DNA from: Paenibacillus apiarius
Lineage (GTDB): Bacteria > Bacillota > Bacilli > Paenibacillales > Paenibacillaceae
Length of the DNA stretch: 64,000 nt
Reading direction: 5' to 3'
Assembly: GCF_017052585.1 (NCBI RefSeq)
Contig: NZ_JAFFHZ010000001.1
Coordinates: 4,774,001 to 4,838,000, forward strand
Shown here: in pieces, positions 33,410 through 37,715 of the stretch
How positions within the stretch are numbered: the first letter of the stretch is position 1
Layout: each line of letters begins with the position of its first letter
Notes under the pieces: model-generated
Told to the model about the DNA's origin: nothing
The model's database searches: none
What the model saw: the letters and a program-made list of their open reading frames with translations, nothing else
Position numbers and translations under genes: made by a program

Positions 33410-33628
33410 TTGCTATACGGGAAAGACACGCTGGCCTTTTCTAAGTATACGCTGGACTCAGGGGGAAGTAAGAAGAAAGGTTTCTTTGACGATGACCTAC
33501 CGGGGCATATCTTTCCAAAATACGTTTTTTGGCATGATGGCGACAAATTGGAATACAGTATTTCAACCTCATCGGATATGACCAGGGAACAGAAGAACGA
33601 AATTCTGAAAGATGCGGTGAAAAAATAA
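33410..33628 (+). pseudogene. C-terminal remnant of a secreted protein of the blaI-regulon family
   Basis: 72 codons opened by TTG, with no ribosome site. The translation lines up with the C-terminal end of the two downstream family members: YGKDTLAFSKYTL matches NGEDFISFQSFHF, then PKYVFWHDGDKLEYSIST matches RNYLFWEGGEKSFQIVT. EQKNEILKDAVKK matches EEDLIKLAKTAVKK. The signal peptide and central region are missing. It lies just upstream of blaI, which suggests an ancestral cluster of three or four copies. Confidence 0.7.
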
Positions 33629-33779
33629 CATTTTGATCCAGCTACAGGTCTTGCGGACAGACTCGTACAGATCTAGAAACAGGATTGTATGGGTTCTTTT
33701 GTAGATCATCATTCCCGCAGGTGGGGCGAATCATTTTTGCATGTAACAAAAACGAGAAAATTTTTCTCTACCAAACATG

Positions 33780-33831
33780 TTGACTTTACCAGACTGCAGT
33801 TGTAGCATAATTCATAACTACATGCGTAGTT
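33780..33831 (+). promoter_or_regulatory. blaI promoter with BlaI-type operator
   Basis: TTGACT at 33780-33785 is a -35. A partial site, ACTGCAGTTGTAG, lies between -35 and the TAGCAT/CATAAT -10. The perfect dyad AACTAC-ATGC-GTAGTT occupies 33816-33831. The same CTACA/TGTAG half-sites recur before the two downstream secreted-protein genes. Autorepression by BlaI is the expected outcome. Confidence 0.75.
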
Positions 33832-33859
33832 TTGCAAATTGATTTTGGAGGTTTTATGC

Positions 33860-34270
33860 ATGAATCAAATACCGTCCATCACGGATGCAGAGTTGGAAAT
33901 TATGCGCGTCTTGTGGACAAATCCGAATTGCCCTTCAAGTGAGGTCGTCAAGAAAATGATGGATCGAATGGGGTGGAGCCCGAATACGACCCGGACGCTC
34001 CTTAGTCGTCTGGTGCAGAAGGAAGCGGCTGGTGCGAAGCTGGAAAAGGGTTCGAAGCGCACCCAATTATTTTATCCGATCATCAGCGAGCAGGAGTACC
34101 TGCGGTCTGAAACTAAATCCTTCATGAAAAAACTGTATGGCGGAGCATTGAAGCCAATGTTGGCCAACTTTTTGCAGGATAAAAAGCTGAATGCGCAAGA
34201 AATCGAGGATCTGAAGGCATTGTTTGACGAAAACCGCAGCGACGGGGAATCGGAAAAGAGAGAGCCCTGA
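33860..34270 (+). CDS. blaI: BlaI/MecI-family repressor
   Basis: 136 aa winged-helix repressor. ITDAELEIMRVLWTNPNCPSSEVVKKM and WSPNTTRTLLSRLVQKE are the family's DNA-binding helices. The C-terminal dimerisation helices follow, with the FMKKLYGGALKPMLANFLQD region where related proteins are cleaved. ATG 33860 is preceded by TTGGAGGT at eight bases. Its TGA overlaps the ATG of the M56 sensor gene, the usual blaI-blaR1 coupling. Likely targets are the ACTACA-NN-TGTAGT dyads in the cluster. There is no beta-lactamase or PBP gene in the window, so the regulated function is something else. Confidence 0.95.
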   Translation: MNQIPSITDAELEIMRVLWTNPNCPSSEVVKKMMDRMGWSPNTTRTLLSRLVQKEAAGAKLEKGSKRTQLFYPIISEQEYLRSETKSFMKKLYGGALKPMLANFLQDKKLNAQEIEDLKALFDENRSDGESEKREP

Positions 34271-36168
34271 TGAATCCTGCATGGAACGAATGTTTATTGT
34301 CGTTCTTCGGCTGGGTCATCCGCGGGTCGTTAATGGCCGGCATTCTGGTCGTGCTTGTCCTGAGTTTGCAATTTCTGTTGCGCAAAAGGCTTGAGGCGAG
34401 ATGGAAATATTGGCTCTGGTTGCCTGTCGCGATTCGTCTGCTGCTCCCTTGGGCGCCGGAATCCTCGCTTAGCTTATACAATGTTCTGCCTGTGGATGTC
34501 TTAGCGCCCGGAATTCAACAACAAACGCCAAATCCATCAGCTTGGCATCAATGGTTGAAGGGGACTGAGGGGGATTACGAAGAGACAGCTCAAGCAGAGC
34601 GTTTCTACACCGCGGAGAAAAGCAGCCAAATCAGAGGAGATGCGGAAGTATCAGATCCGTCCCATAAATCGGGAACTGTGCGGGACATAAGCATCTGGTG
34701 GAGCGGGTTCAAACAAATGGGATTCACCAATCTGCTGATGTTGGTTTGGCTTGCAGGCGTGCTGTTTCTTGCGGCGAAGACGGCATACGACCAGCTTCGA
34801 TTGAAACAAGCTCTGCGCGCGGGCCGATGTATTGACACGCCTTTGTTATCGGCAGTCTTCAGCGAAACGAAGCAGCTAATGGGCGTAAAGCGTGAAGTGC
34901 GGTTTGTAGCAAGTGAGCGCATTCCTGGGCCTGCCGTAGTCGGTTTTCGCAAGCCGGCGATCGTTGTTTCGCCGAGTCTGCTCGTTACGCTGCGAGAGCA
35001 TCAGCTTCGGTGTATTTTGGCGCACGAATTTGCGCATATACAGCGGCGGGATGTGGCGGTGAATTGGACAATGCACATGTTGCTCATTCTCCATTGGTTT
35101 AATCCATTGTTGTGGCTTGCCGTACATAAAACAAGGCAGGATCAGGAGATGGCCTGCGATGCATGCGTACTGAATCGGATGAGTTCACAGCCAAATCTAC
35201 AGCATATCAATACATATGGGCAAACCATCATCCATGTGCTGGAGCATTTTCATTTGTCAGGCAAACGACATCAGCCAGGGCTTGCCGGATTGTCCGCGAC
35301 GCATAAACAAATGAAGAAAAGATTGTTAATGATCAAGCGATTTCATAAAAAATCCTATCATTTGTCCATTTTGGGGATGGCGATTATTGTTGCGCTTGGC
35401 AGCGTGACACTGGTAAATGCGAAGGGAAACGATGTTGGGGCCGCTCCATCCCCTGCTGTCAACGAGATTGCCTTGAAAACGGCGGCAACTAAACCACAAG
35501 CTGAGGGTGAAGGGGAGAAGCTGGAGAAAGCGGAGAAAGAGAGAATCGCCAAGTTGCTTGAAAAAGATCCGGATGATACGTATATCGTATATGTCAGCAA
35601 TGAATTAAAGGAAGGAAAAGGCGGCCTTCCAGTTGAGGGTTTTTCTCTTTCCGAATTTTATCTCATGGGAAGCCCTTCTCCAAGCTTCGATACCTACGAG
35701 GCATATCTCAAAAGAGCATCTGCTTTGAAAGAGGCGGTACCGCAGCAGCCAACTGACTTGCCGAAGGGTTATACTTTCGCCGAAGCGAATATTTATAACG
35801 TGTTCACTTCTAAGGATTTTGCACCAGTGAAAGCCGAGGCTAAAAAGCTGGGCAAACAGGTATATTCCAAGAAAATTAACGTGACAAACAGCCACCACAT
35901 CGGGTTAACGTACACGAATGGAGAAGACTTTATCTCATTTCAGAGCTTTCATTTTGACGAGGAAGATGTAAAAGATAAGAAGAGGAAAGAAAAGGAATAC
36001 AACTATATATCCGCTAAAGACAGAGAAAAGAAAGATCCGAAGCACGAAGGAAGAAATTATCTTTTCTGGGAAGGAGGCGAAAAAAGCTTTCAAATCGTAA
36101 CCAATAAGGGTAATCCGTTGACGGAAGAAGACCTGATCAAGCTGGCGAAAACGGCAGTAAAAAAATAG
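34270..36168 (+). CDS. BlaR1/MecR1-like M56 sensor-protease with a non-PBP extracellular domain
   Basis: 632 aa. Membrane helices near residues 13-37, 44-60 and 155-172 precede the zinc-protease motif HEFAH at 252-256 (HEFAHIQRRD), with AVHKTRQDQEMACDACVL downstream supplying the third ligand. A final helix at about 363-382 is followed by about 250 extracellular residues. In BlaR1 that part is a penicillin-binding domain. Here it is a charged Lys/Glu-rich domain with LPKGYTFAEANIYNVF and a DUF4367-like end (LTEEDLIKLAKTAVKK), and it lacks SxxK or KTG motifs. That domain is nearly identical to the secreted protein encoded at 36379. It should sense an extracellular signal and trigger BlaI cleavage. 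Confidence 0.92.
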   Translation: MNPAWNECLLSFFGWVIRGSLMAGILVVLVLSLQFLLRKRLEARWKYWLWLPVAIRLLLPWAPESSLSLYNVLPVDVLAPGIQQQTPNPSAWHQWLKGTEGDYEETAQAERFYTAEKSSQIRGDAEVSDPSHKSGTVRDISIWWSGFKQMGFTNLLMLVWLAGVLFLAAKTAYDQLRLKQALRAGRCIDTPLLSAVFSETKQLMGVKREVRFVASERIPGPAVVGFRKPAIVVSPSLLVTLREHQLRCILAHEFAHIQRRDVAVNWTMHMLLILHWFNPLLWLAVHKTRQDQEMACDACVLNRMSSQPNLQHINTYGQTIIHVLEHFHLSGKRHQPGLAGLSATHKQMKKRLLMIKRFHKKSYHLSILGMAIIVALGSVTLVNAKGNDVGAAPSPAVNEIALKTAATKPQAEGEGEKLEKAEKERIAKLLEKDPDDTYIVYVSNELKEGKGGLPVEGFSLSEFYLMGSPSPSFDTYEAYLKRASALKEAVPQQPTDLPKGYTFAEANIYNVFTSKDFAPVKAEAKKLGKQVYSKKINVTNSHHIGLTYTNGEDFISFQSFHFDEEDVKDKKRKEKEYNYISAKDREKKDPKHEGRNYLFWEGGEKSFQIVTNKGNPLTEEDLIKLAKTAVKK

Positions 36169-36287
36169 CTTTGTTGCCCATGCAGTCTGAAATAGAATGC
36201 AGGGGCTATCTTTTTGAGCGTGATCCGCAGGTTGAAATAGGTCAACTTCTGCATGTATGAAAAGTGAAGAAATTTACATCAATGATG

Positions 36288-36340
36288 TTGACATTTACAA
36301 ACTACAACTGTAGTATATTACTAAACTACAGTTGTAGTTT
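36288..36340 (+). promoter_or_regulatory. Promoter with two BlaI-type dyads
   Basis: TTGACA (36288-36293), a 17-base gap and TAGTAT (36311-36316) form a strong sigma-A promoter. Dyad 1, ACTACA-AC-TGTAGT (36301-36314), covers the -10. Dyad 2, AAACTACA-GT-TGTAGTTT (36323-36340), lies just downstream. Both share half-sites with the blaI operator, so BlaI should repress this gene tightly. Confidence 0.85.
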
Positions 36341-36378
36341 ATTTTGATTGAAATCAATAATGAGAGGAGTACTACAAA

Positions 36379-37164
36379 ATGAAAGCAGCATCAAAAGTAG
36401 CAATTACAGCATTAAGCAGTATTTTATTACTGGGTTCTTCGATGAACCTAACGGCAGAGGCGGCCCCATCCCGTGCTTCAAGCGACATCGCCTTGAAGAC
36501 GGCAGCCGCTAAACCTAAGGCGATAAGTGAAGGGGAAAGGTTAGAAAAAGAAGAGAAGGATAAAATAAATAAGTTGATGAAAGAAAATCCGGATGATACG
36601 TACATGCTATATGTCAGCAATGAATTAAAGAAAGAAAAAGGCGGCCGGGAAGTTTTTCTCATGGGAGGCTCACCTCCAACCTTCGATACATATGAGGCTT
36701 ACCTCAAAAGAGCATCGACCTTGAAAGAGGCGGTTCTGCAGCAGCCAACTGACTTGCCGGAGGGCTATACCTTTAGCAAGGCGAATATTTATTTCGTATT
36801 CACTCCTAAGGATTTTGCAGCAGTGAAAGCCGAGGCTAAAAAGCTAGGCAAACAAATATATTCCAAGAAGATGAACGTAACAAAAAGCCACCACATCGGG
36901 TTAACGTACACGAAAGGAGAAGACTTTATCTCATTTCAGAGTTTTCATTTTGACGAGGAAGATGTAAAAGATAAGAAGAGGAAAGAAAAGGAATACACCT
37001 ATATATCCGCTAAAGACAGAGAAAAGGAAGATCCGAAGCACGAAGGAAGAAATTATCTTTCCTGGGGAGAAGGTGAAAAAAGCTTTCAAATCGTAACCAA
37101 TAAGGGTAATCCGTTGACGGAAGAAGACCTGATCAAGCTGGCGAAAACGGCAGTAAAAAAATAG
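36379..37164 (+). CDS. Secreted protein duplicating the M56 sensor domain
   Basis: 261 aa with a signal peptide (MKAASKVAITALSSILLLGSS...AEAA). From IALKTAAAKPKA onward the whole mature protein matches the extracellular end of the M56 sensor. DNA for the last ~290 bases (36876-37164 versus 35880-36168) differs at only scattered positions, a recent duplication or gene conversion. The central SPPTFDTYEAYLKRAS and LPEGYTFSKANIYFVF segments are more diverged, and an internal segment present in the sensor (PVEGFSLSEFYL) is missing. GAGAGGAG precedes the ATG. It probably acts outside the cell as a soluble form, decoy or effector. Confidence 0.85.
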   Translation: MKAASKVAITALSSILLLGSSMNLTAEAAPSRASSDIALKTAAAKPKAISEGERLEKEEKDKINKLMKENPDDTYMLYVSNELKKEKGGREVFLMGGSPPTFDTYEAYLKRASTLKEAVLQQPTDLPEGYTFSKANIYFVFTPKDFAAVKAEAKKLGKQIYSKKMNVTKSHHIGLTYTKGEDFISFQSFHFDEEDVKDKKRKEKEYTYISAKDREKEDPKHEGRNYLSWGEGEKSFQIVTNKGNPLTEEDLIKLAKTAVKK

Positions 37165-37231
37165 CTTTATAAACGGAATGATTGTAGAAATGATGAGAAT
37201 ATAATATGGATTCGTCTTAGTTCTTGCGTAC

Positions 37232-37271
37232 AAGCCCATGCAGTCTGAAATAGGATGCATGGGCTTTCTTT
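37232..37271 (+). terminator. Terminator after the secreted sensor-domain gene
   Basis: GCCCATGCA (37232-37240) pairs with TGCATGGGC (about 37255-37263) and TTTCTTTTT follows. A degenerate copy (CCCATGCAG...CTGCAGGGG-like, about 36178-36215) follows the M56 gene. Confidence 0.8.
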
Positions 37272-37347
37272 TTGAGCGTGATCCATAGTCGAACGGATCA
37301 TTTTTGCATGTAGTAAAAGCGTGAAAACAACTTTCGAATAAATCATG

Positions 37348-37376
37348 TCGACATCAATGGACTACAATTGTAGTTA
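37348..37376 (+). promoter_or_regulatory. Promoter with BlaI-type dyad ahead of the truncated relative
   Basis: TCGACA (37348-37353), a 17-base gap and TAGTTA (37371-37376) mirror the promoter at 36288. The dyad ACTACA-AT-TGTAGT (37361-37374) overlaps the -10 in the same place. The flanking sequence is also shared with the region before 36379, so the whole promoter was duplicated. Confidence 0.82.
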
Positions 37377-37415
37377 AGTGAGTTTAAACATCATAAATGG
37401 GAGGGGGGTTACCAA

Positions 37416-37715
37416 ATGAAGGTAGCAACAAAAGTGGCAATCGCTACACTAAGCAGTGTTTTATTATTGGGTTCTTCAGTGAACTTTGCGGCAGAGGCGC
37501 AATCCTACGAGAAAACCCAAAAAACCGCTGCTACAAAAACAGCCCAAAAGGCTCCGACTTCAGAGGAAAAAAAGTTTATCGAAAGTGAGATCAAGAGAGT
37601 GAGGGCGCTGGCCGAAGAGTCGGGCGATTCGTATGTTCTGTCTCTTAAATACAAGGATCCATTAAAGTACGTATCTAATAAAAGAATCCACGCTGTGGGT
37701 GTTCCCTCTGAATGA
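37416..37715 (+). CDS. Short secreted relative of the sensor-domain proteins, probably truncated
   Basis: 99 aa. The signal peptide (MKVATKVAIATLSSVLLLGSS) is almost the same as that of the 36379 protein, followed by a diverged region (KKFIESEIKRVRALAEESGD...YVLSLKYKD). It stops after NKRIHAVGVPSE, where the other family members continue for about 150 residues. It either encodes a short secreted peptide or is a truncated gene. GGAGGGGGG precedes the ATG. It has its own BlaI-type promoter. Confidence 0.6.
   Translation: MKVATKVAIATLSSVLLLGSSVNFAAEAQSYEKTQKTAATKTAQKAPTSEEKKFIESEIKRVRALAEESGDSYVLSLKYKDPLKYVSNKRIHAVGVPSE

Follow-up and report, generated by a model that had tools for sequence, protein, structure and literature searches.

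A BlaI-M56 protease switch in Paenibacillus apiarius accompanied by a secreted paralogue of its own sensor domain

Gene content of the locus

We examined a 64,000-nucleotide stretch of the Paenibacillus apiarius genome (contig C1, positions 4774001-4838000, genome size 6.58 Mb; hereafter the window), which carries a BlaI-family repressor, an M56 protease of the BlaR1 type and a secreted protein that duplicates the extracellular sensor domain of the protease. The blaI, M56 and soluble genes all lie on one strand (+), with remnants of the soluble family on both flanks. The repressor gene (33860..34270, 136 amino acids [aa]) encodes a protein that matches PF03965 with 101.3 bits (cut-off 22.6), and most likely starts at the ATG at 33860, which has GGAGG upstream. 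Numbered from this ATG, residues N103-F104 are of the same types as those at the published BlaI cleavage site. The M56 protease/antirepressor gene (34270..36168, 632 aa) overlaps the blaI stop codon; its product matches PF05569 over residues 16-355 (176.6 bits, cut-off 31) and carries HEFAH at residues 252-256, as stated in the original prediction, which had been made from the letters of the sequence. The prediction also held that a penicillin-binding protein (PBP) domain, a beta-lactamase and PBP2a are absent, and this stands for a PBP domain in the M56 protein; the 64 kb were not scanned for beta-lactamase genes. The last helix of the M56 protein ends in VNA-K, where a signal peptidase could cut, by analogy with BlaR1, and is followed by the sensor domain (35425..36165), which is DUF4367-like and belongs to the first (A) of three subtypes, A to C, described below.

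The secreted paralogue (36379..37164, 261 aa, type A, free of cysteine) is the putative output of the switch. Its N-terminus, judged by eye, resembles a signal peptide, and the protein corresponds to the entire M56 ectodomain, with 79% identity at the protein level and 87% at the DNA level, climbing to 95-100% across about the last 250 bases at the 3' end. The proposal that this open reading frame (ORF) is a secreted duplicate of the ectodomain is thus borne out. Its promoter region (36288..36338) comprises TTGACA at 36288, TAGTAT 17 bp on, and two perfect dyads at 36301-36314 and 36325-36338, of which the first spans the spacer and the -10 element and the second lies 24 bp further. The dyad consensus is that of the bla/mec literature. 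The same two-dyad spacing is found upstream of blaI (33793..33830, +), where the dyads are weaker (33793-33806, two mismatches; 33817-33830, one mismatch; 24 bp apart).

Both remnants lie on the + strand. The one upstream of blaI (33410..33628) is the C-terminal part of a type-C member of the soluble family, as indicated by profile scores (type C, 119.7 bits; type B, 59.1 bits; type A, no match) and by gene order, since its position is approximately that of the intact soluble gene in most other loci. The second (37416..37715, 99 aa) is a truncated N-terminal part of type B/C (about 50 bits with each of these two profiles and no match to type A), preceded by a third perfect dyad (37361..37374, +). 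Hence, the copies with intact 5' ends do sit behind perfect BlaI-type dyads, as had been noted, and the remnants do belong to the family of the intact pair, although not to its subtype.

Conservation of the sensor-soluble arrangement

A search with the M56 protein covered 60 genomes, including its own, of which 37 contained any match at 1e-10; a 30-row domain profile was run against 394 genomes of the family, scoring up to seven candidates per genome, with matches in at least 122. These searches gave 41 loci: the window, 19 loci where the M56 match extends into the ectodomain, and 21 from the family profile search, the latter being all M56-sized frames (600-660 codons) among the matches listed. 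One locus was excluded because its contig ends inside the M56 gene (L038), leaving 40; L021 and L036 are one Paenibacillus profundus contig, for which L036 alone was counted. An intact member of the soluble family lies near the M56 gene in 38 of the 40 loci, which span four genera of one family (genus groups g1, g6, g8 and g13). The layout described in the original prediction is supported well beyond the window, and a lone local duplication was rejected on the strength of these 40 loci. Two gene orders occur, soluble-blaI-M56 in the majority and blaI-M56-soluble in the window.

The HExxH motif is present in all 40 M56 homologs, the window among them, and 34 of the 44 BlaI ORFs of these loci carry N-F close to where the published cleavage site lies. 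No cysteine was found in the 40 sensor domains and 38 soluble proteins. The soluble genes appear to be under purifying selection, with dN/dS below 1 in 14 of 14 pairs (0.02-0.51; window gene versus its L034 and L035 counterparts, 0.22 and 0.24), and positive selection on the whole soluble gene was rejected on this basis. Among 299 genomes of the phylum, profile A4 matched two, namely the own genome and another from its family. Searches of viral contigs, plasmids and phages found no relatives at the sensitivity applied to each, so that the system is not a visible mobile cargo.

As a first control, we considered 20 other BlaI-M56 loci (L070-L089; 18 from relatives and two from the own genome) in which the M56 match did not cover this ectodomain. 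A BlaI ORF was present in all 20, and a soluble paralogue of the ectodomain in none (blastp, 1e-3). One control locus contains three tandem M56 genes with a common, related and partly repeated ectodomain (L081:3505-11778). In another family of the order, a BlaI-M56 pair adjoins a secreted protein (L070:2628-6060 and L071) that presumably resembles a chitin-binding monooxygenase; a perfect dyad in L070 precedes blaI.

Members of the soluble family also occur in arrays (L106, L111, L039 and L054), with extra blaI genes in L039 and L111. L106 has a second, N-terminally incomplete M56 gene beside the main locus (a 565-aa ORF, treated as M56 rather than soluble and kept outside the nearest-soluble counts), and L054 has blaI and a soluble array, with no M56 gene in the stretch read. 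These arrays are a possible reservoir for recombination. In the own genome, four ORFs of 323-357 aa, arranged in tandem and each with an N-terminus resembling a signal peptide, stand beside a short soluble-family remnant (L010:6229-10496).

Distribution of BlaI-type dyads

The perfect 12-base dyad pattern occurs at three places in the 6.58 Mb of the own genome, all at the window locus. When one mismatch was allowed, seven places were found, compared with 23 for a reversed control pattern; one-mismatch sites are thus not enriched, and only perfect sites carry weight. In all 38 loci with a soluble gene, the nearest one is preceded by at least one perfect dyad and by two dyads with at most one mismatch each, 24-29 bp apart. 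Across twelve further genomes, 33 perfect dyads were detected in nine, and all 33 fall at these loci by coordinates (reversed pattern: nine perfect sites across the twelve). Taken together, all 36 perfect dyads of the ten genomes precede a soluble gene, blaI, a truncated copy or, in L045, the M56 gene itself. The remaining three of the twelve, which are of the same genus (G002, G008 and G009), have no perfect dyad, and the M56 search found no window-type M56 in them. Since all perfect dyads are at these loci, the visible regulon consists of blaI, the sensor and its soluble double.

The second control comprised 20 loci with family members remote from any M56 gene (L008-L010 and L053-L069). Dyads with zero or one mismatch occurred in none of them, and a two-mismatch dyad in three (L054, L060 and L062). 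G008 contains soluble members, while M56 and domain-profile searches found no M56 of the window kind there. This case and the dyad-less, M56-remote members indicate, as far as sequences tell, that the soluble protein can serve alone.

Matched subtypes of sensor and soluble protein

A tree built with a short search from 40 sensor domains and 38 soluble proteins (78 rows) supports the three subtypes at 90-95; in it, the sensor and soluble protein of one locus share the major subtype in 38 of 38 pairs. Distances among sensor domains correlate closely with those among soluble proteins (r = 0.978), compared with 0.66 and 0.69 for each against the protease. With the catalytic part removed, the partial correlation was 0.960, a value reached in none of 5000 permutations, which ignore shared ancestry.

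The clearest case of joint replacement is L037, from a close relative (G001). Compared with the window at the DNA level, its protease is 94.9% identical, its sensor 67% and its soluble gene 68%, and its own sensor and soluble copies are 92% alike. The sensor and soluble gene were replaced together there. The intact pair of the window is of type A, whereas its two remnants are of type B/C; the simplest reading would be that the locus once had a type-C soluble gene in the usual upstream position, swapped for a type-A pair. As for a broad exchange of sensor domains across protease lineages, the protease tree shows type A as a single clade and requires two placements for type B; the direct cases are thus confined to the L037 replacement and the window fossils.

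Compared with the tethered domain, the soluble protein is the more basic one in 36 of 38 M56 pairs, and likewise in 11 of the 12 loci scored with an anti-sigma factor in place of the protease (see below; L164, with a broken anti-sigma frame, was left out). Stand-alone soluble copies are similarly basic (median, +6.5), and hence the charge difference is suggestive only.

Recurrence on sigma/anti-sigma operons

In genus group g18 and others, extracytoplasmic function (ECF) sigma factor genes are accompanied by an anti-sigma gene whose product has one membrane helix and an ectodomain of this same family (DUF4367, 30.8 and 25.6 bits in the two tested). A secreted soluble paralogue follows the anti-sigma gene in 13 of 22 loci read and is absent in nine; nine of the 13 were picked via the soluble gene, which biases this share upward, and among 14 clear anti-sigma places alone the paralogue is present in five. 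Sequence comparison thus indicates that the sensor-soluble arrangement also exists on ECF sigma/anti-sigma operons. In L122, L123, L146-L149 and L159-L165, one or two secreted soluble paralogues lie directly 3' of the anti-sigma gene. In the own genome, a stand-alone soluble member lies behind an ECF sigma gene and a gene for a DUF4179 protein, where Pfam finds no DUF4367 (L009:4405-7677).

Domain family and fold

The window ectodomain and soluble protein match DUF4367 (PF14285) with 22.0 and 19.4 bits, respectively, both below the cut-off of 22.1. The profile matches 11 of 30 members at E ≤0.1 and 13 of 18 at E ≤1, and exceeds the cut-off in four proteins of the anti-sigma chassis (23.8-30.8 bits). 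The prediction had listed among its grounds for refutation that the domain might prove to be a known sensor, and this is half the case: the ectodomain appears weakly related to DUF4367, a family of unknown function that was named in no paper of the open-access literature searched. An AlphaFold2 model of the mature soluble protein (five rows, from the window and L021 only) had a mean predicted local distance difference test score (pLDDT) of 48.5, and 54.5 for its C-terminal part, which does not suffice to assign a fold with confidence. A weak fold likeness was seen for the C-terminal half of the domain, mostly to the RseB C-terminal domain, with no sequence match. Sequence-profile searches of the PDB gave nothing convincing (best E 0.059, to fluorescent proteins, which we regard as chance; other best 0.43).

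Proposed mechanism and alternatives

We propose, at about an even level of confidence, that the locus encodes a switch of the BlaR1/BlaI type in which the sensor reproduces, in tethered form, the secreted protein that the switch controls, with both proteins binding one ligand. The sensor ectodomain would, on our best reading, be a recruited copy of a secreted effector. An extracellular ligand would bind the M56 ectodomain, the ligand-bound protease would cleave BlaI, and cleavage would derepress the soluble gene and the blaI-M56 operon; the secreted double would then bind the same ligand, sequestering or neutralizing it, so that the cell is protected and the signal ended. This would follow the logic of beta-lactamase induction, with a cysteine-free, DUF4367-type binding domain replacing the penicillin-recognizing one, and possibly with no catalysis. 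Beta-lactam sensing itself was rejected, as the M56 protein has no penicillin-recognizing domain. If both partners bind one ligand, they would be expected to be replaced together when the ligand changes, and the apparent control by the switch of a free copy of its own sensing domain suggests that sensor and secreted protein recognize one common substance or each other. Of the roles that the prediction had allowed for the soluble copy (decoy, feedback inhibitor, competitor or effector), the last is favored by the distribution of dyads, with no other target visible.

Several observations weigh against this proposal, in addition to the ancestry shared among the permuted loci. Two loci lack an intact soluble neighbor: L052 consists of a split M56 gene and soluble fragments only, and in L045 the M56 gene lies behind dyads without an adjacent BlaI or soluble gene (L045:4161-6041, G013; the ectodomain is divergent, and the two upstream dyads are perfect). 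Ten of the 44 BlaI ORFs lack N-F, several having H-F or N-L there. The own soluble protein is the best match of the sensor in only eight of 38 loci and ranks as low as 22nd in subtype C; pairing is therefore by subtype and lineage rather than strict. Moreover, the 3' ends of adjacent paralogues are homogenized within genomes, and gene conversion between neighbors could be an alternative cause of part of the pairing. Perfect dyads occur in three of the 20 control BlaI-M56 loci (L070, L081 and L082), all in other families, so that the dyad is not peculiar to this system but a site of general BlaI type. Weaker BlaI operators may exist elsewhere, the relatives having been mapped for perfect matches only; a one-mismatch site at 2368084 of the own genome has no identified target. 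Finally, no catalytic signature was seen in the soluble protein, and its protective action is a guess.

A broader formulation, which we hold more tentatively, is that of a self-referential receptor module, a sensor that yields nothing but its own ectodomain in free form. The two would work as a matched pair that passes between subtypes as one unit and has been fitted to two unrelated membrane-signaling chassis, M56/BlaI and ECF sigma/anti-sigma; the soluble twin would either bind the receptor or compete with it for the ligand.

The main rival, possible and yet doubtful in our view, is that the secreted double is a direct regulator, which would bind the tethered ectodomain homotypically or heterotypically and set the gain of the sensor, much as RseB/MucB attach to the ectodomain of the anti-sigma factors RseA/MucA. 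Co-variation would then reflect a common interface, and the charge difference, the sensor-soluble pairing and the likeness to RseB are all consistent with this. A purely regulatory role would leave the switch with no other visible output, and soluble members exist without such a sensor in G008; on both grounds, we favor an effector. The two roles are compatible, and an effector could also contact its sensor directly. Autoinduction, in which the secreted double is itself the inducing ligand and the switch gauges density or export and locks on, is improbable: the same domain on both sides, the matched subtypes and the BlaI-type operators before the soluble gene all fit, but family arrays without dyads would be expected to trigger the sensor constitutively; nothing else speaks specifically against it. 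Neutral tandem duplication with gene conversion, which would make the soluble copy a by-product uncoupled from the sensor and would account for the 3' homogenization, remnants and arrays, is very improbable given the retention of the copy in 38 of 40 loci and four genera, its operators in 38 of 38, purifying selection, the recurrence on the anti-sigma chassis and the absence of a soluble copy from all 20 other BlaI-M56 loci.

The preferred reading of a tethered effector copy would free a BlaI-M56 pair from beta-lactams and identify the probable output of the pair. With three gene products in the regulon, and one domain serving as both sensor and output, the circuit would be close to the simplest that joins a receptor to an effector; it also makes testable the idea that a receptor in bacteria originates when a secreted binding protein becomes anchored to a protease or to an anti-sigma factor. 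The locus also offers a first functional context for DUF4367-like domains, and a route to the ligand, as the sole visibly operator-controlled protein is secreted and purifiable. Matched replacement of sensor and effector would constitute a natural record of specificity changes.

Comparison with known systems

The original prediction knew of no described system with this layout. This holds within the open-access literature searched, which yielded no description of an M56/BlaI switch whose one visible target is its soluble ectodomain, or of the reuse of this pairing with anti-sigma factors; the principle does have precedents in BlaR1 (PMC9834060) and RsgI6 (PMC4711584). The kinds of components are known, and a class D beta-lactamase with a BlaR-type regulator in Clostridioides difficile is a related precedent.

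As in BlaR1-BlaI and MecR1-MecI, the window combines a BlaI-family repressor, an M56 protease with HExxH, and dyads at the repressor and target promoters. In BlaR1, ligand binding to the ectodomain shifts the M56 domain and BlaI is cut between N101 and F102; the sensor domain, a relative of class D beta-lactamases, is shed by signal peptidase (PMC9834060). Both sensors are thus akin to a secreted protein, a beta-lactamase for BlaR1 and the soluble twin for the window. Unlike in BlaR1 and MecR1, the window ectodomain has no penicillin-recognizing (class D-like) Pfam match, and NCBIfam blaR1_generic scores the window M56 protein at 167 bits (cut-off 400), covering residues 18-378 only. The operator-bearing target also differs, being the soluble sensor-domain twin rather than a beta-lactamase or PBP2a.

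A secreted soluble partner of a transmembrane sensor recalls RseB/MucB with RseA/MucA. The RseA ectodomain is itself not known to be an RseB homolog. The fold likeness of the window domain mostly leaves out the lipid-binding N-terminal domain of RseB; RseB/MucB is reported to be a lipid-sensing partner (PMC7400510).

An ectodomain module common to secreted proteins of the same system is likewise a feature of RsgI. For example, RsgI6 of Clostridium thermocellum carries a GH10 module 57% identical to the secreted xylanase Xyn10D (PMC4711584). The anti-sigma chassis of RsgI is used by the ECF relatives of the window only, and not by the window itself. RsgI systems combine a SigI/anti-sigma chassis with carbohydrate modules and many target enzymes, whereas the window combines an M56/BlaI chassis with a bare sensor domain whose soluble twin is the only visible output.

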